Source: Pistricoccus aurantiacus | GTDB lineage: Bacteria; Pseudomonadota; Gammaproteobacteria; Pseudomonadales; Halomonadaceae | Assembly (NCBI RefSeq): GCF_007954585.1 | Contig: NZ_CP042382.1 | Location: 1,860,001 to 1,924,000 of the forward strand | DNA: 64,000 nt | Direction: 5' to 3' | In this document: in pieces, positions 46,222 to 56,127 of the stretch | Layout: the number at the start of each line of letters is the position of its first letter | Numbering within the stretch: position 1 is the first letter of the stretch | The notes under the pieces: model-generated | The model's database searches: none | What the model was told of the DNA's origin: nothing | What the model saw: the letters and a program-made list of their open reading frames with translations, nothing else | Position numbers and translations under genes: made by a program

Positions 46222-47031
46222 TCACTTGTCGCTGCGAATCTGGGCATGACTGATCAGGGCAAAGATGAAGGTGCCGCCCACCACGTTGCCCGACAGCACC
46301 GGCAGTACGAAGTCGAGCAGATAGACGCCGAAACTCACCTTGCCGTCGAACACCAGATAGAGCACCTCCGTGGAGCCGACGATGATGTGGGTGAAACCGC
46401 CGATCGCCACCAGATAGGTGATGATCAGGATCACCCCGATCTTGGCCTGCCCGGCGGCGGGGAGCAGCCACACCATGGTGGCGATCAGCCAGCCCGCGAA
46501 CACGCCCTTGGCGAACATCATGCCGCCATCGTTTTCCAGCAGATGCTTGCCGATGCCGAGAAATACCTGGTGTGTCTCGCTGTCGAAGACCGGCATGGTG
46601 ATGATCGCGTAGGCAGCGATGGCGGTACCCAGCAGGTTGCCGATCAGCACCGTGCCCCACAGCCGTAGAAGGCACAGCAGCTTGGAAAAACGCGGCTCGC
46701 TCATCAAGGGCAGGACCGCGGTCACCGTGTTTTCGGTAAAAAGCTGCTGCCTGGCGAGGATCACGATCAGAAAGCCGATGGTGTAGCCCAGGGACGCCAC
46801 GAGATAGCCGATGCTGCTGTCCGGCAGATGAAAGGTCAGCAAGCCCTTGGCCAGCATCGAGAAGCTCATCGACATCCCGGCGGCCAGCGCCGACCAGAAC
46901 AAGGCGGAAACGGTGCGCGACAGCTCCTTCTCGCCTTCGCTGCGAATGGTCTTGTGTACGCCCGCCGCTTGAGTGGGCATGCGACCGTCGTCAAAATCTT
47001 CGCTTTTTGAAGTGTTGGATTCGTTCGACAA
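46222..47031 (-). CDS. Formate/nitrite transporter (FNT) family protein, YfdC-like
   Basis: This 269-residue membrane protein has six helices after a charged N-terminal tail of about 40 residues. FNT-type features are the alternating small-residue helices (FWSALAAGMSMSFSMLAKGL), LVASLGYTIGFLIVILARQQ with LFTENTVTAVLPL, and the C-terminal GGFTHIIVGSTEVLYLVF with GNVVGGTFIFALISH. FocA/NirC channels carry formate, nitrite or hydrosulfide; the YfdC branch is uncharacterised and the substrate is not readable here. The gene stands alone, convergent with the repeat protein. Confidence 0.85.
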   Translation of the reverse strand: MSNESNTSKSEDFDDGRMPTQAAGVHKTIRSEGEKELSRTVSALFWSALAAGMSMSFSMLAKGLLTFHLPDSSIGYLVASLGYTIGFLIVILARQQLFTENTVTAVLPLMSEPRFSKLLCLLRLWGTVLIGNLLGTAIAAYAIITMPVFDSETHQVFLGIGKHLLENDGGMMFAKGVFAGWLIATMVWLLPAAGQAKIGVILIITYLVAIGGFTHIIVGSTEVLYLVFDGKVSFGVYLLDFVLPVLSGNVVGGTFIFALISHAQIRSDK

Positions 47032-47126: not shown

Positions 47127-48497
47127 TTATTTTCTCCCTGATGATACGTCTTTCGGGTGCGTCAGGAAAAAGCGCAGCATCTCCTTGCTGGCATCCGGGC
47201 CCCTGGGGTCGGTATAGGAGCCGCGAGAGGTGCCGCCGGCCCAGGCATGGCCCGCGCCGTGAATCGACCACTGCTCCAGAATGGCCTGACCCTTCGCATC
47301 ATGATGCGTCGTCCAGGTATAGGCATGACCATTGGGTACCTGACCGCGCTCGCTTTGCATGCCCATGTTGCTTTTCGCGTGTTTTCCTGTGCCGGCGGAA
47401 GGCAGATATTGCGCCGCGACCCGATCGCCGTTGCTGGGATGCACCGTGGCGTCCCGATCGCCGTGGAAGATGATCGCGGGAATGGTCCGAGCCGATGAGG
47501 ATTTCGCGCGGATATCCGCCTGCTTGTCGAGGCTCGCCAGCGGCCCGTTGCCGCCTTGCATTGCCGCGAGAGCGGATGGCAGATCCTGGGCGGCGCCGTG
47601 AGGAAGCCCGGAGTGAACGCCCACCGCCGCGAACAGATCCGGGTAGGTCATGGCCAGCGTCGTTGCCATGGCGCCGCCGGCGGACAGTCCCGCCACATAG
47701 ACGCGGGCTTCGTCCAGGTGATACTCCTCGATGATCCGGCGCGTCATGCCGGCAATGATCGCCGGTTCGCCGCGTTCGCGCTGCTGATCGCTTGCCTTGA
47801 ACCAGTTCCAGCACCTGGAATGATTGGCGGAGGCAGGCTGGGCGGGGTAGAGCACCAGGCAGGGCTGCGTTTCCGCCAGGGTGTTCATGCCGGTGCCGGC
47901 GGCGAAATCATCCGGATTTTGGGTGCAGCCGTGCAGCATGACCACCAGCGGCAGGGACTGGCCATGATAGCCGCTGGGAACATACAGCTTGTAATCCCGG
48001 CTGCCCGCCTGATTGGCGAAGGTGCCGCCGGTAAAGGTTGCACCTTCCGGCAGCGCTTCCGTGGGGGTGGCGAACCCTGTGTTCAGCCCTTGCAACCCGC
48101 CTTGCCAACCCTCTTGCAAGCCTCCTTGCAATCCCGCCAGCTTGCCGCGCAGCAGATCGCCCAGACCGCCGGCGTTAAGGCCGCCGATATTCGGACTGAC
48201 AGCGAAAGGTTGGCGTGGCGCAGGGGACTGCACTCGATCTTGCTGAGCGGTTCTTGAATGGGCGGCACTGTCGCGAGAGCGAGAGACAGTATCGGGTTTT
48301 GCCTCGTCCACCACCCGATAGCTTCCTTCGATGGTCTCGCCTCGAGCGTCCGCGGGCTCGCCGTTTTCGTTCGAACCCGACTCGCCGTTCAGCGCCCGCT
48401 GTATCATCGCGGTGGCTTCCTGCAGTTGGCCCGCCTGGGTCAAGCGAGTGGCTTCCTGCAGGTTGGCCATGATCGTTTCATTGATGGAAAGGTTCAT
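47127..48497 (-). CDS. PHB-depolymerase-family esterase (esterase_phb/LpqC type), cytoplasmic
   Basis: The protein has 456 residues. The C-terminal alpha/beta-hydrolase domain (about 165-450) has the oxyanion region VVMLHGCTQNPDDFAAGTGM, the nucleophile serine in VAGLSAGGAMATTLA, the acid in FHGDRDATVHPSNGD and the histidine in HGAGHAWAGG. The N-terminal 150 residues are unusual: a short helical start (NETIMANLQEATRLTQAGQL), a charged linker and a Gly-Leu-rich segment (GGLNAGGLGDLLRGKLAGLQ). There is no signal peptide, so it acts inside the cell, perhaps on native polyhydroxyalkanoate granules or another ester. It is cotranscribed with the RHH regulator 32 bp upstream. Confidence 0.88.
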   Translation of the reverse strand: MNLSINETIMANLQEATRLTQAGQLQEATAMIQRALNGESGSNENGEPADARGETIEGSYRVVDEAKPDTVSRSRDSAAHSRTAQQDRVQSPAPRQPFAVSPNIGGLNAGGLGDLLRGKLAGLQGGLQEGWQGGLQGLNTGFATPTEALPEGATFTGGTFANQAGSRDYKLYVPSGYHGQSLPLVVMLHGCTQNPDDFAAGTGMNTLAETQPCLVLYPAQPASANHSRCWNWFKASDQQRERGEPAIIAGMTRRIIEEYHLDEARVYVAGLSAGGAMATTLAMTYPDLFAAVGVHSGLPHGAAQDLPSALAAMQGGNGPLASLDKQADIRAKSSSARTIPAIIFHGDRDATVHPSNGDRVAAQYLPSAGTGKHAKSNMGMQSERGQVPNGHAYTWTTHHDAKGQAILEQWSIHGAGHAWAGGTSRGSYTDPRGPDASKEMLRFFLTHPKDVSSGRK

Positions 48498-48529
48498 TGA
48501 AATGCTCCTCGGCGTGGATTGCCCCGCCG

Positions 48530-48946
48530 TCAGTGGATTCTGTCCGCCAGGGCGGCCTTGACCGCCTTGCTGGCTTGCAGGGCGCCGAGTACGGCGATGG
48601 ATTCGATGGTGGCCAGGGCAAGTTCCGGGGAGACATCCTCGGCGATACTCGCAAGCCCCAGTACCTGAATCTGCAGTGCCTCTCCCCGGGCCTGTACCGC
48701 CTCGAGATCGGCACGGCTGTAATGTTGCAGGCCCAGCACGTAGGTCTTGCGGGCGACGGTTTCCTTGACCACTTCCGCGTGAGTCGCCAGCTGGTTGCGA
48801 ATCGCCGTACGGATCAGGTCGCTGCGGTTGGAATAGAAGCCTTCCTGTACCAGCAGATCGATCTGTCCCAGGTCGATCACCCCCAGATTGATAGTGAGCT
48901 TCTCGGTGGTGTCGCTCGGTTTGCGTCTTAGCTCATGCACGCTCAT
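48530..48946 (-). CDS. Ribbon-helix-helix (CopG-like) regulator of the esterase operon
   Basis: This 138-residue protein has an N-terminal ribbon-helix-helix (about 15-55): strand EKLTINLGVIDLGQIDLL, then YSNRSDLIRTAIRNQLATH. A C-terminal region of about 80 residues probably mediates oligomerisation or ligand sensing. A direct esterase partner and a perfect inverted-repeat operator just upstream point to autoregulation. GAGGAAA lies seven bases before the ATG. The sensed signal is unknown; PHA/fatty-acid status is an inference from the esterase. Confidence 0.82.
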   Translation of the reverse strand: MSVHELRRKPSDTTEKLTINLGVIDLGQIDLLVQEGFYSNRSDLIRTAIRNQLATHAEVVKETVARKTYVLGLQHYSRADLEAVQARGEALQIQVLGLASIAEDVSPELALATIESIAVLGALQASKAVKAALADRIH

Positions 48947-48988
48947 CGTGGCTTTCCTCGTTATTCAGCATCTATAGGGATTCCGCTT

Positions 48989-49034
48989 GGATTCTATATA
49001 CCATCCAATTAGAATCCATATGGATGGTATATAG
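48989..49034. promoter_or_regulatory. Compound inverted-repeat operator upstream of the RHH regulator
   Basis: CTATATACCATCC (48994-49006) and GGATGGTATATAG (49022-49034) are perfect 13-bp inverted arms. An overlapping pair, GGATTCTA (48989-48996) and TAGAATCC (49010-49017), and the octamer CCATATGG (49016-49023) add symmetry. Such stacked palindromes are typical for cooperative RHH dimers. The site lies 43-88 bp upstream of the regulator start and probably covers its promoter. Confidence 0.75.
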
Positions 49035-49222
49035 CGTATCCGAGTCTCTGTCAAGGAAAGACAGCCGTCAAGAAAACAAGCGCGTCAATCATGACAAGGG
49101 CGCAAGGCCGGGCGCCGGGTCATCAAGAGAAGAAAAACCGAGGAAGGAACTATCAAGTAAGTCAGTATCAAGGGAGGAACTGGCAGGATAAGAAGGGCGG
49201 GAGGTTATCCCGCAAAGCCGGT

Positions 49223-50386
49223 TTATCTTTCGGGATAAACGCACCGGCCGCCCACGAAGGTCCGCCGTGGCTGAAGCTGGCTGTCCAGCAGCGTGATGTC
49301 CGCGTCGAATCCGACGGCCAGGCGTCCCTTGCGGTGGTGCAGCCCGAGCACCCGGGCCACGTTCCCGGAAATCACGCCCAGGGCGTCCTCGAGGGGCAGC
49401 ACCTTTTCATTCACCAGACGCTGCCAGTCCGCGACCAGGGCGGTGTTGCGCGCCACCCGCATGCCCAGGTAAGCGCCTTGAGCGTCGAATTCCGGCAGGC
49501 TGCCGTTGCAATCGGAACTCATGGTGATGCGCTCCACCGGAACGCCGCGATCGAGCAACAGGCAAACCGCGTCGAAGCCGGAAGGATCGTCCTCACCAAG
49601 CTCATCGAAGGCGGTCACATCCACGCAGGCGGCGAAGGTCAGCGCATAGTCCGCAGCCTCCTCGAGCAGGGCGCGATGGCGGTTGACGTGGGTGGGGATC
49701 ACCTGGTCCGCGGGGATCTCCGTTTCGGCCAGCAGGCGACGCAGCGGTTCCAGTCCGCGCTTGCCGTCGCCGAGGTGGAAATGGCAGATACCGCGCTTGC
49801 CCGCCAGCATGGCGCCGACCCGCACCTCGCTGACCAGCCGTTCGATCTCGTCCTGGCGCGGCTGGCTCGAACGGTGGTCCGAAATGGCCAGCTCCCCCAG
49901 GCCGATCACCTCGGGAATCCAGGCCAGATCACGCTGCAGGTCACCGGTGAGGGTCGGCGGCGGCACCCGATAGGCGCCGGTATACATGTAGGCGTCAATG
50001 CCCTCCGCCTTGAGGTCGCGCACCTTGGCGAGCAGGTCCGCCGGGGAGCGGCTGATGCTGTCGGTGCCCAGTACGCCGACTACCGTGGCGATTCCCATGG
50101 CGGCGATTTCCCGAGCGGTGATCGCCGGGCAACGGCTGCCACCACCCCCTTCGCCGCCGCCACCGGTGACATGCACATGCTGATCGATGAAGGCCGGCAC
50201 GGCGATCAGATCCGGTGCTTCCACCCGATGCACCGGCCAGCCTTGGGGAATATCAAGATCGCGCCCCAGGGCGGCGATTCGTCCATCGGCGATCAGGATA
50301 TCGGTGGCTTCGAGCGGTTCCGGCGCATGGATACGACCCACCCGCAGCAGGGTCATCAAGGGAAGATCCGGATCATGTCGCTTCAT
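49223..50386 (-). CDS. iadA: IadA-type isoaspartyl dipeptidase (beta-aspartyl-peptidase), cyanophycin operon
   Basis: This is a 387-residue amidohydrolase (E. coli IadA is 390). Metal ligands H70 and H72 lie in FIDQHVHVTGGGGEGG. The lysine that bridges the metals in E. coli IadA appears to be replaced by E165 in GLGELAISDHRSS. Other family motifs are LLGTDSISRSP, YTGAYRVPPPT, VIPTHVNRH and the catalytic aspartate in MSSDCNGS. It hydrolyses beta-aspartyl dipeptides. Its start overlaps the cphA stop by four bases, so here it is dedicated to beta-Asp-Arg released from cyanophycin. Confidence 0.92.
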   Translation of the reverse strand: MKRHDPDLPLMTLLRVGRIHAPEPLEATDILIADGRIAALGRDLDIPQGWPVHRVEAPDLIAVPAFIDQHVHVTGGGGEGGGGSRCPAITAREIAAMGIATVVGVLGTDSISRSPADLLAKVRDLKAEGIDAYMYTGAYRVPPPTLTGDLQRDLAWIPEVIGLGELAISDHRSSQPRQDEIERLVSEVRVGAMLAGKRGICHFHLGDGKRGLEPLRRLLAETEIPADQVIPTHVNRHRALLEEAADYALTFAACVDVTAFDELGEDDPSGFDAVCLLLDRGVPVERITMSSDCNGSLPEFDAQGAYLGMRVARNTALVADWQRLVNEKVLPLEDALGVISGNVARVLGLHHRKGRLAVGFDADITLLDSQLQPRRTFVGGRCVYPER

Positions 50387-53007
50387 GTCGGATCTCCGCT
50401 CGCATCCGGGGCGAAGCGGCGTCCCCGGAGACGTTCGATAGCGCTTTCCGTGTCGTCTATCAACAGCACCAGCAAATCGCCTTCGCTTGCCTGATCGAAC
50501 GCCTTTGCGACCGCCTGGCGCTCTTCCATGAAAACCTCCACCTGGCAGTTGTCTTCTATTGAATCCGCACCGCTGCGTATCAGCGCACTGGTTTCACCGG
50601 GGGCGCGTCCGCGCGGGTCGCTATCGAAGATAAACAAGCTGTCGTGCATTCTGGCGAGCTGGGCACCCAGGGCCACGAGGTCCTCGTCACGGCGATTGCC
50701 CGGCGCGCCGGCGACACAGAGGCGTCGATGCGCCGGAATACAGCTGACCAGTTCACCGAGGGCCTCGAGGGCCGCCACGTTGTGCCCATAATCGATCAGC
50801 ACCTTCATGCCCGCCGCTTCGATGAAATTGGTGCGCCCGGGGTTCTGGCCCGGCGTGGGATGAAACGTCTGCAGGCCCCGTTGGATATCCGCGATGGAAA
50901 GTCCCAGCGCATAGGCGGCGGCGCTGGCGGCCAGGGCATTGGCGACGTTGAAGCGTGCATGTCCCTCGAAGGTAAGCGGCACTTCAAAGACCGGAACCAC
51001 CTCGGCCTCCACCTTGCCCTGGCGCATCACGATACGCTCGTTGTGCACGGTGAAGGCCACGCCGTGTTCGTTGACATGCTCGCGGATCGTCGGCGAGTCG
51101 GGGTCCAGGGTGAAGAAGACGATATTGCCCCGGGCCCATTGCCGACTGTCGAGCACCCGTGGGTCGTCCGCGTTGAGTACTGCCGTGCCGCCTTGGCGCA
51201 CCGCATCGATCACCACGGATTTGCAGCGAGCCAGTTCCTCCAGGGTATGGATATCGTGTTCGCCCAGGTGGTCGCTGGCGATATTGAGCAATACGCCGAC
51301 ATCGCACTCGTCGAAACCGAGCCCGCGACGCATGATGCCGCCCCGGGCAACCTCGAGTACCGCGTACTCCACCGTGGGCTCCCGCAGCACGATGGCGGCG
51401 GCCTGAGGGCCGCTATAGTCGCCGCGCATGATCACATGGTTATTGATCTCGATGGTGCCGGTACAGGCCATGCCGACGCTGCGGCGCGCATGACGCAGCA
51501 GGTGTGCGAGCAGGCGTACCGTCGTGGTCTTGCCGTTGGTGCCGGTGACGGCCGCGATGGGAACGCGGCCGTTGTCGTCGCTGTCCGGAAACAGCATGTC
51601 CACTACCGGCCGACCCACGTTGCGGCCCAGCCCATGGGTGGGAGACAGGTGCATGCGAAAACCGGGGCCGGCGTTGACCTCCACCACCGCGGCGGACTGG
51701 TCCTCCAGGGGCCGAGTCAGGGTTTCCGACAGCAGATCGATACCGATGATATCGAGCCCGATCAATCGTGCGATACGTTCCGCAGCGTATTTGACTTCCG
51801 GGTGAACGTCGTCGGTCACGTCCGTGGCGGTGCCCCCGGTACTCAGGTTTGCCGTGGACTTCAAGTAGACGATTTCATCCTTGGCGATCACGCTTTGCAG
51901 GGTCAGGTTCTGCTGATCGAGCAAGCGCAGCGACTGCTCGTCTATTTGAATCTGCGTCAGCAGGTTTTCATGGCCGACACCGCGGCGCGGGTCGCCATTT
52001 TCCACGTCCACCAGCGCTTGAATGGAGGATTCACCGTCGCCGATCACATGAGCGGGACGTCGTCTGGCGGCGGCAACAAGCTGACCGTTGATTACCAGCA
52101 GGCGATGATCCTCGCCTTTGACGTATTTCTCGACGATGACCGAAGGGTAGCGGTTAGCCGCGATATCGAAGGCCTCTCGCAGTGCCTGGTCGTCATCGAT
52201 ATCCGTGCTGATACCACGACCGTGATTGCCGATCAGCGGTTTCGTTACGACGGGATAGCCGATGTCTCGAGCGATGTCGAGTGCTTCACTATAGGACTCG
52301 CAAACTCGTCCCTGGGGTACCGGGATGCCTGCGTCGTCAAGTATCTGCTTGGTCCAGTTCTTGTCGTCGGCGATGCCGGCGCCGATCAGATTCGTGCGCC
52401 AGGTCACCGTCGCCTGGATGCGCTGCTGGCGATGGCCCTGGCCTAGTTGTACATAGCTGCTGTCTTCACTCAGACGCGTGCTGGGAATACCACGGTTCCC
52501 GGCGGCCTCGACGATAGCGGCGGTGGATGGCCCCAGCATGTTGTCGTCGCGCACATTCTTGAGCCGCGTGATGATGGCGGGCATGTCGATGGCGTCGCCG
52601 CTGAACAGCCGTTCGACGAAATCCACGGCTTCCACCCCTGCGGCGAGACCACAGGCCTCGTCCCGATAGCGATAGATGACGTTGTAGATACCGCTGTCAT
52701 AGGCGTCGATGGTCTTGCCGTAGCCGACGGAGAAGCCGATCAGATTCTGCAGTTCGATGGCCACGTGCTCGACAATATGGCCGGCCCAGGTACCGCGAGC
52801 CAGCCGCTCCAGAAACCCGCCGGGGCGGCCCACGGAGCAGCGGTGTTCCTGCAGCGTGGGAATGAGTTCGCTGATGCGCTGGACGATATCCGGGGCGGTA
52901 TCGCTCGGTCGCTGTTCCAGCTCGCCGATGTCCAGGCGCAGAAAAATGGCCTGATAGCGGCTGTAATAGTTCGGGCCGCGCAGGGCGCGGTGTTCCAGGA
53001 TGTTCAT
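50383..53007 (-). CDS. cphA: CphA, cyanophycin synthetase (CphA1 type)
   Basis: This 874-residue enzyme has three parts. An N-terminal domain (about 1-160) contains HIVEH at residues 77-81 within GTWAGHIVEHVAIELQ; this motif lies in the domain reported to act as a primer-generating metallopeptidase in some CphA1 enzymes. An ATP-grasp domain (about 170-480) adds aspartate to the backbone (VEKYVKGEDHRLLVINGQLV, VVEVNAGPGFRMHL). A Mur-ligase-like domain (about 485-870) with P-loop AVTGTNGKTTT adds arginine. The product is multi-L-arginyl-poly-L-aspartate, an insoluble nitrogen, carbon and energy store. Both ends overlap neighbouring genes by four bases. Confidence 0.95.
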   Translation of the reverse strand: MNILEHRALRGPNYYSRYQAIFLRLDIGELEQRPSDTAPDIVQRISELIPTLQEHRCSVGRPGGFLERLARGTWAGHIVEHVAIELQNLIGFSVGYGKTIDAYDSGIYNVIYRYRDEACGLAAGVEAVDFVERLFSGDAIDMPAIITRLKNVRDDNMLGPSTAAIVEAAGNRGIPSTRLSEDSSYVQLGQGHRQQRIQATVTWRTNLIGAGIADDKNWTKQILDDAGIPVPQGRVCESYSEALDIARDIGYPVVTKPLIGNHGRGISTDIDDDQALREAFDIAANRYPSVIVEKYVKGEDHRLLVINGQLVAAARRRPAHVIGDGESSIQALVDVENGDPRRGVGHENLLTQIQIDEQSLRLLDQQNLTLQSVIAKDEIVYLKSTANLSTGGTATDVTDDVHPEVKYAAERIARLIGLDIIGIDLLSETLTRPLEDQSAAVVEVNAGPGFRMHLSPTHGLGRNVGRPVVDMLFPDSDDNGRVPIAAVTGTNGKTTTVRLLAHLLRHARRSVGMACTGTIEINNHVIMRGDYSGPQAAAIVLREPTVEYAVLEVARGGIMRRGLGFDECDVGVLLNIASDHLGEHDIHTLEELARCKSVVIDAVRQGGTAVLNADDPRVLDSRQWARGNIVFFTLDPDSPTIREHVNEHGVAFTVHNERIVMRQGKVEAEVVPVFEVPLTFEGHARFNVANALAASAAAYALGLSIADIQRGLQTFHPTPGQNPGRTNFIEAAGMKVLIDYGHNVAALEALGELVSCIPAHRRLCVAGAPGNRRDEDLVALGAQLARMHDSLFIFDSDPRGRAPGETSALIRSGADSIEDNCQVEVFMEERQAVAKAFDQASEGDLLVLLIDDTESAIERLRGRRFAPDASGDPT

Positions 53008-53903
53008 GGGATTTCCTTTTCCTTGAGAACAGCAGTGAGCTCGTCGGCGACGAGGTAACGGCGTGCATCGATGTCGAACCCATGTCCGCTGATCAAGGCA
53101 TGTACGATCGTGTTCTCGATGGCCACGGGTTCTCCCATCGACAGGGCGGCGATGTTCGAGCTTGCCAGCTTCTGGCTGTCGATGATGATCACATGTCCAG
53201 AACCGATGACTTCAAGAACCCGATTTGGGTGAATGATCACCGCCGCGTCCTCGCCGATTCCCACGCCCAACTGTCCCGGATTGGACGCGCCGGCTTCCAT
53301 CAAGCGGGTAAATCGCCCCCGGTTGAGAAAGTGGCTGTCGATCATCAGGCCGCTGACCAGCCCGAGACCTGACGCCATATGGACCGCGCCCTTGCGCAAG
53401 GCATCCTCGGCGGCGCCGCCGTAGATCATGGTGCTCGGCAGCGCCGCGGCGCCGGCGCTGGTGCCGGCCACCACCGCACCCGCCCCGGAGCGTTGACGGA
53501 TGGCTTCCAGCACCGGGGAGCCGCCTATGGCGCTGGTCAGATGAAGCTGGTCACCACCGGTAAAGAAAATAACCCCGCTTCGCTCGATCAGGCGCACTGC
53601 CTCCGGGTCGGCGGCTTGACGGCGATCCTGCATCGCCAGCGTATGGACTCGACTCGCACCCAGGCGTTCGAAGGCTGCTCTATAGACGGGAAGTATCTGA
53701 CCCGGGATGGAGCTTGCGGCAGCGATGACCACGACTTCGCTGTTGCCTTCCGGGGCGAGGGCAAAGACCTGTTTCAGGATGGCAAGATCGGAGGTTCTGT
53801 CCTCCGCGCCGCCGATGGCCACGAGAAGGCCCGGTGAGCCGGGGCTTGATGAGACGGCGTTTGATGAAATAGCGCTTGATGAAATAGGGCGATGTATTGT
53901 CAT
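53004..53903 (-). CDS. cphB: CphB, cyanophycinase
   Basis: This 299-residue S51-type serine peptidase has the nucleophile S149 in VVAGTSAGAAALPSTMI, GGAEDRTSDLAIL near residue 31 and FTGGDQLHL; YGG and SHFLNRGRFTRL complete the fold. It cuts cyanophycin to beta-Asp-Arg dipeptides. It opens the operon, with AAGGA and five further bases before the ATG, and its stop overlaps the cphA start. The first 22 residues are a Ser-rich five-residue repeat (PISSS, AISSN, AVSSS) encoded by three 15-bp tandem repeats and are not part of the conserved domain. No signal peptide is evident, so it acts in the cytoplasm. Confidence 0.94.
   Translation of the reverse strand: MTIHRPISSSAISSNAVSSSPGSPGLLVAIGGAEDRTSDLAILKQVFALAPEGNSEVVVIAAASSIPGQILPVYRAAFERLGASRVHTLAMQDRRQAADPEAVRLIERSGVIFFTGGDQLHLTSAIGGSPVLEAIRQRSGAGAVVAGTSAGAAALPSTMIYGGAAEDALRKGAVHMASGLGLVSGLMIDSHFLNRGRFTRLMEAGASNPGQLGVGIGEDAAVIIHPNRVLEVIGSGHVIIIDSQKLASSNIAALSMGEPVAIENTIVHALISGHGFDIDARRYLVADELTAVLKEKEIP
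53846..53890. repeat. Three 15-bp tandem repeats inside the cphB 5' end
   Basis: Units TTGATGAGACGGCGT, TTGATGAAATAGCGC and TTGATGAAATAGGGC follow head to tail. They are in frame with cphB and encode the Ser-rich pentapeptide repeat at its N-terminus. Units are whole multiples of three, so copy-number change would keep the reading frame. Confidence 0.75.
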
Positions 53904-54033
53904 TCTTTTCCTTCGCGACTAAACGATACGGCCAGGGAAATGCCTAAGCAATACCCTGAGTATACGGCGCTTTTACTCACATAACGGCGTTTTCGTTTTC
54001 GTTGTATGGTTAAAAAAACACAAGGTAAATCCC

Positions 54034-54552
54034 ATGGCTTACCGCTTCTTGTACTTGTCGGCTGGCGCTACGTTGCTGGTTTTTTCCGCGATTTCTCCTG
54101 CCGATAGCGCGCAGCCTCCCTCCTGCTCGCCGAGCGAAACCCACCAGGCCTGGCTCGAGCGGGTCAACCAGGCCAGAAGTCAGCCCCGCCAGTGCGGTGA
54201 CGAATCCTTTCAGGCCGTCGAGTCGCTGACCTGGAGCTGCGCCCTGGAGGCAGCCGCCAAGGACTACGCAAAGAACATGGCGGAAAACGATTTCTTCAGT
54301 CATACCAGCCCTTCCGGTAAAGATGTTGGAGAGCGGGTGCGGGATCAAGGCTACGACTGGTGGGCGGTGGGGGAGAACATCGCCGCGGGACAGGATTCCA
54401 TCGAGGCGGTGATCGAAGGCTGGCTTTCGAGCCCGGGCCACTGCGCCAATCTCATGAGCGAGAAATTTAGCGAGATGGGCATGGCCAGGGCACAAGCGCC
54501 GGGTTCCGTGTACTCGCCTTACTGGACGCAGATCTTCGCCAGGCCGAAGTAG
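54034..54552 (+). CDS. Secreted CAP-domain (SCP/PR-1) protein
   Basis: The protein has 172 residues. The signal peptide is LYLSAGATLLVFSAISPADS, cleaved near residue 25. The CAP domain has the hallmarks HQAWLERVNQARSQPRQCG, LEAAAKDYAKNMAENDFFSH, VGENIAAGQDSIEAVIEGWL and SSPGHCANLM with the His/Glu set of the family. Bacterial CAP proteins of the YkwD type are secreted and of uncertain function. Four cysteines could form two disulfides. It is divergent from the cyanophycin operon, sharing 130 bp. Confidence 0.88.
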   Translation: MAYRFLYLSAGATLLVFSAISPADSAQPPSCSPSETHQAWLERVNQARSQPRQCGDESFQAVESLTWSCALEAAAKDYAKNMAENDFFSHTSPSGKDVGERVRDQGYDWWAVGENIAAGQDSIEAVIEGWLSSPGHCANLMSEKFSEMGMARAQAPGSVYSPYWTQIFARPK

Positions 54553-54802
54553 AGAGGCAGCAGAACTCGATTTTCGTGCTTCTTTTCAACGCCTGTGACG
54601 GCTGCCTGGCTGAGCGATGACTCGCTCCAGGGCCAAAGCCCCTCGCTCAAAGGCCTGTTTTTGCTTTTCCAAAATACTGCTACGCTGATAGCGAGTGAAT
54701 GGAAAATAGAAATAGTAAAAGGCATTCCAGTTCAATCGCTGACCCATGGTGTCAGTAGAATCAAGTAGACAATCGCGTAGGACACTACTCAGGAGAGAGA
54801 CG

Positions 54803-55012
54803 ATGAAGGATTCCAAGACGGACAAGTCCGAAGGCATGATCGACAAGGCGGCAGGCAAGATCAAGGAGGCGCTGGGCAAGGCCAGTGATGACAAGAGTAC
54901 CGAAGCCGAAGGCAAGGCGCAGGCCTCCAAGGGAGACGCCAAGCGAGCCAAGGGCAACGTGAAGGATGCTCTCGATCCAGGAAGCGATTCTCAAAAGACC
55001 AATAATCCGTAG
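54803..55012 (+). CDS. CsbD-family stress protein
   Basis: This 69-residue hydrophilic protein is rich in Lys, Asp, Ala and Gly, with the CsbD pattern SEGMIDKAAGKIKEALGKA followed by AEGKAQASKGDAKRAKG. Members are small general-stress proteins, often controlled by stationary-phase or stress sigma factors; the molecular function is unknown. AGGAGAGAG precedes ATG 54803. The frame extends to 54746 without a ribosome site. The 250 bp upstream hold no other gene. Confidence 0.88.
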   Translation: MKDSKTDKSEGMIDKAAGKIKEALGKASDDKSTEAEGKAQASKGDAKRAKGNVKDALDPGSDSQKTNNP

Positions 55013-55081
55013 CACTGATTCCCAGCTTGCATCGAACCATCGCCGGGCCGTGAAAGCGGTCCGGCGATGGCGTTTTTTTAC

Positions 55082-55158
55082 TGGCGCCCCCATCAGGATT
55101 CGAACCTGAGACCTTCCCCTTAGGAGGGGGACGCTCTATCCAGCTGAGCTATGGGGGC
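55082..55158 (-). tRNA. tRNA-Arg (anticodon CCU)
   Basis: Read on the minus strand, the 77-base gene starts GCCCCCATAGCTCAG and ends TGGGGGC-G-CCA. The acceptor stem is GCCCCCA/TGGGGGC. The anticodon loop CTCCTAA between TCCCC and GGGGA gives anticodon CCU, decoding AGG. The T arm GGTTCGAATCC is standard and CCA is encoded. AGG is a rare codon in this GC-rich genome, so this is probably a low-copy tRNA. Confidence 0.93.
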
Positions 55159-55311
55159 TAAAAAGGCGAGACATCCTGTATACCAGGAACTGTGTCGCGG
55201 GCGGGGCACAGTATAAAGCGCGTGCCGGGCAAGTTAAACCCGATTCGGTCCGGGCGGTGATCGATGCTAGAGTAGCCTCCTCATTGCCCGATGATGCCGC
55301 CTGCGATTTTC

Positions 55312-56127
55312 ATGTCAGCTTCTTCTTCAAGTGATATCTCACCACTTTCTCCTTTGGGCGATCGTCATTTCGACGGCCTGGCGGACAAGTTCGCCACCAG
55401 CCTTTACGCCACTTCTCGAGGCGAGATTCGCTTGCGCCTGTTGAATGCGCTGCTGCCGCGCCAGCTTGATCTACGAGGACAAAGGGTACTGGACGTGGGT
55501 GGTGGGCTAGGGCAAATGGCGGCCTGGTTCGCGGAGCGCGGCCATAGGGTGACCCTGGCGGAGCCGGCGGCGGAAATGCTGGCCCGAGCGCGGGAGGCGC
55601 TTGAAGGTCAGCCTGTGGAATTGATTCAGACGACGCTACAGGCGTTGCCGGAAAAAGCGCCAGGGCCTTGGTCGCTGGTGGTTTGCCATGCGGTGCTGGA
55701 ATGGCTGGCGGATCCGCGAGAGGCGCTGCGGATTCTCGCTTCGCTGGTAGCACCCGGTGGCCAGCTATCGCTGATGGTGTTCAACCGTGACGCGCTGCGG
55801 CTCTCCAATATCGTCAAGGGCAATCTGGACAAGGTGCTGGACGATCGTCTGGCGGGTACCGGCAAGCGTCAACGACTGACGCCGATCTCACCGCTGACCC
55901 ATGCGGATATCGAGGCTTGGGCGACGGAAAATGATCTGGTGATGGAAGCGGTGGCGGGCGTTCGAGTCTTTTATGATTATCTTCGCGAGCGTGATCCCCA
56001 AGGAGATACCCTGACCAAGCTGATCGAGCTGGAACACCGCTACTGCGAAGCGGAGCCTTACTGGCGACTGGGGCGCTATCTGTTGTATACCCTGCGCAAG
56101 CCGACCATCCAGGAGAAAGATTCATGA
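55312..56127 (+). CDS. cmoM: CmoM, tRNA 5-carboxymethoxyuridine methyltransferase
   Basis: This 271-residue SAM-dependent methyltransferase matches E. coli CmoM (SmtA). FDGLADKFATSLYATSRGEI aligns with the conserved N-terminus, and SAM motif I is RVLDVGGGLGQMAAWFAERG. VVCHAVLEWLADPREAL, VRVFYDYLRERD and LIELEHRYCEAEPYWRLGRY are family-specific. It methylates cmo5U34 in certain tRNAs, widening wobble decoding. ATG 55312 is taken; ATG 55291/55294 are in frame and neither has a clear ribosome site. Its last four bases overlap the rsmC start. Confidence 0.9.
   Translation: MSASSSSDISPLSPLGDRHFDGLADKFATSLYATSRGEIRLRLLNALLPRQLDLRGQRVLDVGGGLGQMAAWFAERGHRVTLAEPAAEMLARAREALEGQPVELIQTTLQALPEKAPGPWSLVVCHAVLEWLADPREALRILASLVAPGGQLSLMVFNRDALRLSNIVKGNLDKVLDDRLAGTGKRQRLTPISPLTHADIEAWATENDLVMEAVAGVRVFYDYLRERDPQGDTLTKLIELEHRYCEAEPYWRLGRYLLYTLRKPTIQEKDS

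Follow-up and report, generated by a model that had tools for sequence, protein, structure and literature searches.

Organization of the cyanophycin locus

The window analyzed here is a 64,000-nucleotide stretch of the Pistricoccus aurantiacus genome (contig NZ_CP042382.1, positions 1,860,001 to 1,924,000), to which all coordinates refer. Three intact open reading frames occupy positions 49223-53903 on the minus strand and, read from right to left, encode a cyanophycinase, CphB, a cyanophycin synthetase 1, CphA, and an isoaspartyl dipeptidase, IadA (Table 1). The genes are joined by two 4-bp overlaps, both of the sequence ATGA, as the original prediction had described, and its gene assignments are upheld by the scores of the three proteins, each of which exceeds the cut-off of a curated NCBIfam equivalog model. 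Shine-Dalgarno-like stretches lie 5' of all three starts (AAGGAAAAGA, AAGGAAAAGGAAA, and GCGGAG). Together with the overlaps, these stretches make translational coupling of cphB, cphA, and iadA plausible, and independent initiation is also compatible with the arrangement.

Table 1. Features of the cyanophycin locus, in window coordinates and in the direction of reading
Feature	Positions	Strand	Description
region between cphB and divergent CAP-domain gene	53904..54033	-	130 bp; presumed location of the operon promoter
cphB	53004..53903	-	cyanophycinase, peptidase family S51, 299 aa
cphB stop/cphA start overlap	53004..53007	-	4 bp, ATGA
cphA	50383..53007	-	cyanophycin synthetase 1, 874 aa; N, ATP-grasp (G), and Mur-ligase-like (M) domains
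cphA stop/iadA start overlap	50383..50386	-	4 bp, ATGA
iadA	49223..50386	-	isoaspartyl dipeptidase, 387 aa
terminator hairpin candidate	49197..49213	-	10 bp after iadA; weak

Conservation of the operon in Halomonadaceae

Three family models were searched against 201 Halomonadaceae genomes, drawn evenly from a larger group, and adjacency was checked on 55 fetched stretches and the locus described here. A match to cphA above the cut-off is present in 56 genomes. The cyanophycinase gene lies directly upstream of cphA in all 56, and iadA lies directly downstream in 55; the distribution in relatives, which the original prediction had named as a check on its proposal, is thus that of an adjacent trio. 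The one exception, G018, has cphB-cphA without an iadA match, and the open reading frames 3' of its cphA show no dipeptidase by eye. Similar to the locus described here, cphB and cphA overlap by 4 bp in 48 of the 55 readable family operons; in the other seven they overlap by 1 or 14 bp or lie 1-5 bp apart. The cphA/iadA junction is an overlap (1, 4, or 7 bp) in 46 of 55 operons and a gap of 11-61 bp in the remaining nine (for junction lengths, the start codon closest to the homologous position was taken). As the gene order is held in nearly all cphA-positive genomes and the junction overlaps recur, the locus is more than a chance arrangement, and the cyanophycin gene set is real and well conserved among relatives. 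Pairwise distances of the three proteins are correlated across 54 operons (Mantel r 0.65-0.78, with 0 of 500 permutations as high), a pattern that would fit joint inheritance of the three genes.

Outside these operons, three further cphA matches (G027, G139, and G173) fall below the cut-off and are ∼31% identical to CphA. Genome G107 contains a lone fragment of an operon-type iadA (L134:5378-6175; 80% identity over 267 residues), and no cphA or cphB match was found in the 14-kb stretch around it; the fragment is the relic of an operon that has been lost. G132, G139, and G173 contain cyanophycinase-like genes with longer open frames (433-510 codons) and have no cphA above the cut-off. In G191, also a genome without cphA above the cut-off, a partial cyanophycinase-like match has an internal stop.

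Catalytic residues of CphA and CphB

CphA matches TIGR02068 (cyanophycin synthetase) with 1154.4 bits against a cut-off of 850, residues 2-861 aligning with positions 1-859 of 862, and it contains the Pfam domains PF18921, PF08443, PF08245, and PF02875. The best relative of known structure is 7lg5, which aligns end to end (E 2.3e-241), and 7wac is also among the best; both are cyanophycin synthases. His262, Arg302, Asp579, and His580 of CphA align with H267, R309, D585, and H586 of SuCphA1. The changes H267A and D585A/H586A serve to inactivate the G and M domains (PMC9262961), and R309A almost abolishes activity (PMC9427784). The Cx19HxxEH motif of the N domain, which has been tied to primer-independent synthesis (PMC9262961), is intact in CphA at C57/H77/E80/H81, and the same four residues are found in 55 of the 56 operon loci. 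By this motif, CphA is predicted to belong to the primer-independent type and to carry out primer-free synthesis. The 56th locus is unreadable at these positions: in this draft Halomonas cphA (L097 (G117)/L020), the match does not start until residue 134 and the N-terminal part is out of frame, reflecting either a broken gene or an error in the draft sequence.

The position of SuCphA1 E215 is occupied by Gly211 in CphA. In SuCphA1 and TeCphA1, E215 is in contact with the side chain of Arg in the polymer. On changing this residue to Ala, SuCphA1 keeps nearly half of its activity, whereas the cyanobacterial TeCphA1 loses most of it (PMC9427784). Since the residue is a substrate contact and its weight differs between enzymes, its presence was not treated as defining CphA1.

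CphB matches TIGR02069 (cyanophycinase) with 232.4 bits (cut-off 126.6) as well as PF03575, and its best relatives of known structure are the cyanophycinases 7uqv and then 3en0. Ser149, which lies within GTSAG, and His191 and Glu218, which we take to be its catalytic partners, are kept in all 56 operon loci; the position of the nucleophilic Ser reads Ala in 7uqw. The protein is short, its TIGR02069-matched core starts at residue 27, and inspection by eye of the N-terminal stretch revealed no hydrophobic segment.

IadA of the operon and its stand-alone homologs

IadA matches TIGR01975 (beta-aspartyl peptidase) with 377.7 bits (cut-off 331.25), and its best relative of known structure is the isoaspartyl dipeptidase 8dqn, which we take to be the LmIadA of PMC10206079. 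The metal ligands His70, His72, Glu165, His204, His233, and Asp292 are intact. Asp292, Tyr135, and Arg172 are among the metal-ligand and substrate positions of such enzymes. H70, H72, E165, H204, H233, E79, T108, and R236 match positions given in PMC10206079, and all eleven tested positions are kept in the 55 operon copies. LmIadA, which comes from a cphA1/cyanophycinase/iadA cluster, has a Glu where the E. coli enzyme has a carboxylated Lys and shows no preference for beta-Asp-Arg (PMC10206079). The IadA described here shares the metal-site Glu.

A quick tree of 91 IadA rows was built from the 55 family operon copies, 29 stand-alone family matches, five copies from operons of other families, the G107 fragment, and LmIadA. 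The family operon copies group together with the five from other families and with the G107 fragment, and the 29 stand-alone matches make up a separate group, with long branches (SH-aLRT 99) between the two. LmIadA falls between the groups and outside the operon clade, on a very long branch that makes its placement unsure. The stand-alone proteins (L098-L126) all exceed the TIGR01975 cut-off and are only 37-43% identical to IadA. In all 28 that are readable at this position, Leu stands in place of the first His of HxH, the metal motif (VDPLVH in the four inspected), and these genes may thus encode an amidohydrolase with a different metal site or task. Descriptions of the operon IadA as its own clade, or of stand-alone copies without the first HxH His, were not found among open-access titles and the beginnings of abstracts.

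Operon-type IadA is present in 55 of the 56 cphA-positive genomes and in one of the 145 cphA-negative genomes, the latter as a fragment (Fisher p 3e-47, a value that ignores kinship), whereas stand-alone IadA is present in four and 25 genomes of these two sets, respectively (p 0.08). Taken with the tree, this distribution shows that, in Halomonadaceae, it is the canonical IadA that accompanies the polymer genes. It is conceivable, though we consider it doubtful, that the operon captured an IadA lineage of its own that became tuned to beta-Asp-Arg and was co-inherited, with the stand-alone gene shifting from HxH to LxH and taking on another task. If true, a general enzyme would have become a dedicated cyanophycin enzyme, contrary to the published promiscuous picture. 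Because one IadA clade is tied almost perfectly to cphA, such a specialization can be tested directly. Over the stretch that aligns with IadA residues 258-270, net charge averages -4.0 in the 55 operon copies and -1.9 in the 29 stand-alone copies, a rough comparison between stretches of differing length. The charge of this Arg-binding loop was rejected as evidence of specificity, as LmIadA, which has no Arg preference, also has a value of -4.

Gene order outside the family

A comparison with CphA yielded 34 loci in named genomes, 27 of which lie outside the family by their record titles. In 22 of these 27, cphB is directly upstream of cphA on the same strand, and the 22 span Alpha- and Gammaproteobacteria, Clostridium, Bacteroidetes, Acidobacteria, Nitrospirota, and archaeal bins. 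Of the remaining five, L026 and L038 have no cphB match within the stretch examined, and L028, L029, and L042 have cphB on the opposite strand. In Synechocystis (slr2001-slr2002) and Anabaena (cphB1-cphA1), cphB is likewise directly upstream of cphA, an order like that of the operon described here. The original prediction had called the placement of cphB ahead of cphA an unusual logic for a storage operon; since 22 of the 27 outside loci and all 56 family loci share this order, it is the usual one.

A search with IadA places iadA after cphA in at least five of the 27 outside loci (four Salinisphaeraceae and one Ectothiorhodospiraceae bin), a lower bound because the stretches of L021, L035, and L042 end inside cphA. 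In the survey of PMC10206079, cphA1 and a cyanophycinase gene are clustered in 535 of 658 genomes carrying both, and in 37 of the 231 genomes that have all three genes (16%), iadA is part of the cluster as well. The trio is thus together far more often in the cphA-positive Halomonadaceae than in that survey, a difference of which no description was found among open-access titles and the beginnings of abstracts.

Four bins labeled Thermoplasmata or Euryarchaeota (L024, L025, L030, and L037) also contain adjacent cphB-cphA, three of them with the same 4-bp overlap; they represent either archaeal cyanophycin genes or mis-binned contigs.

Upstream and downstream sequences

No promoter or regulator site was recognized upstream of cphB at the locus described here. 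No sigma-70-like site was found in the 130 bp that separate cphB from the divergent CAP-domain gene, and strict sigma-54, ArgR, and NtrC patterns were each absent from the 300 bases before cphB in all 56 upstream regions. With relaxed patterns, sigma-54-like sites appear in 12 of the 56 regions, that of the present locus not being among them, and a half-specified NtrC pattern appears in 48, being too loose to carry meaning. A motif search, in which kinship was uncontrolled, returned GGCTGTTATAAGTGAAG-like or CTGTTATAAG-like sites with ≤5 mismatches in 39 of the 56 regions, often with ATTAATCTGGC before them. These motifs read as a putative extended -10 promoter element; neither is present upstream of cphB here at ≤5 mismatches. 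Downstream of iadA, the terminator candidate is favored by its position alone, with one hairpin in 48900-54300 against a mean of 4.3 in shuffled sequence. An Rfam search of 48000-55500 returned only a tRNA, outside the operon.

Host genome and surroundings

The 3.78-Mb genome, a single contig, contains one cphA above the cut-off, one cyanophycinase gene (E ≤ 1e-10), which is cphB, and one iadA (E ≤ 1e-50). Among dipeptidase families the search covered IadA and IaaA, and no IaaA-family match was found in the genome. Ectoine synthase is present above the cut-off, nifH has only a weak match below it, and the closest named cphA loci are from Modicisalibacter, Vreelandella, and Halomonas (76-80% identity). 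These observations bear out the earlier description of the host as a halophilic heterotroph, and it is probably one that does not fix nitrogen, judging from its gene content.

On the iadA side, the operon is adjoined by an RHH_8 ribbon-helix-helix gene and then a PHB-depolymerase-family gene (47127-48946). The same two genes stand beside the operon in four of 55 relatives (L062, L083, L085, and L097), where they come before it. As these are the only neighbors that recur, the position of the operon is not fixed. Two PHA synthases are present in the genome above the cut-off, and a storage-polymer neighborhood around the operon is possible. A tRNA-Arg (CCT) gene lies at 55082-55158 on the same strand, ∼1.2 kb upstream of the operon. 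Recent import of the operon is not supported; its GC content of 0.633 is not exceptional, 4681-base stretches of the window having a mean of 0.603 and an sd of 0.031.

Functional interpretation

The locus is very probably a complete operon for cyanophycin storage and retrieval, read CphB, CphA, IadA, the activities being predicted from characterized relatives. Its three enzyme genes cover synthesis, cleavage of the polymer, and cleavage of the dipeptide, which agrees with the completeness originally proposed, and storage is the natural reading of such a set. CphA would use ATP to add Asp to the backbone and Arg to the Asp side chain, and the metal site of its N domain would cut chains to give new primers; with this site intact, no outside primer should be needed. 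CphB would convert the polymer to beta-Asp-Arg dipeptides, from which IadA, within the same cell, would release Asp and Arg. The three enzymes are probably made together, and CphA would polymerize when Asp, Arg, and ATP are plentiful. Given this probable joint expression, the balance between storage and release would depend chiefly on how much Arg, Asp, and ATP is supplied and on how active the enzymes are. Translational coupling of the genes, accumulation of the polymer, and its role as a nitrogen reserve are predicted. The Gly at the E215 position, the lack of beta-Asp-Arg preference in LmIadA, the G018 operon without iadA, and the absence of a recognized promoter or regulator site upstream of cphB were counted against the storage-and-retrieval reading.

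An alternative that partly overlaps with storage, such that the probabilities of the two need not sum to one, is constant turnover, in which joint translation pairs CphB with CphA and the polymer cycles continuously under post-translational control, perhaps with CphB acting on arginine metabolism. The conserved overlaps, which suggest that the enzymes are made together, agree with this alternative, as does a report from a cyanobacterium that what matters for arginine biosynthesis and growth under heterotrophic conditions is that CphB is present, and not that polymer is made or turned over (PMC12661447). The original prediction had read constant turnover from the gene order, an argument that fails because the cphB-cphA order is usual inside and outside the family and the two genes are generally clustered in the survey (PMC10206079); it is nothing special to this locus, and we regard constant turnover as improbable.

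That the cell instead scavenges cyanophycin released by cyanobacteria, with CphA a bystander, is highly improbable: utilization loci with a cyanophycinase, iadA, and a transporter have been described (PMC10206079, citing Ben Hania et al.), and three family genomes without cphA above the cut-off (G132, G139, and G173) do hold a different, longer cyanophycinase-like gene, but such utilization loci lack cphA1, whereas here CphA spans its full length and retains its three active sites, CphB is short and by eye has no N-terminal hydrophobic segment, and the operon contains no transporter, the nearest, of the formate/nitrite family (46222-47031), being separated from it by two other genes.

Comparison with known systems

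A gene cluster of this kind has already been described, and one IadA from such a cluster has been characterized (PMC10206079). The clustered cphA1, cyanophycinase, and iadA loci, for example that of Leucothrix mucor (Sharon and Schmeing 2023, PMC10206079), have the same trio, in one gammaproteobacterial cluster, and the same Glu-containing IadA metal site. The operon alone changes no current idea and is a solid but ordinary finding. What the family offers is a clean test system, a group of culturable halophiles that inherits synthesis, polymer cleavage, and dipeptide cleavage as one unit. No measurement of cyanophycin in Halomonadaceae was found in the open literature by titles and the beginnings of abstracts. 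Cyanobacteria differ from the present system in that the dipeptide is left to IaaA in almost all of their CphA1-containing genomes (PMC10206079). Congregibacter litoralis is likewise a gammaproteobacterium with cphAB, a marine one in which cyanophycin is a characteristic storage compound, but it is a photoheterotroph of another lineage, and the polymer has been observed there and is only predicted here (PMC3679898). In Chromohalobacter, also a member of Halomonadaceae, cyanophycin biosynthesis is listed among the genus-specific genes, without analysis of the operon in the passage that lists it (PMC5518125).
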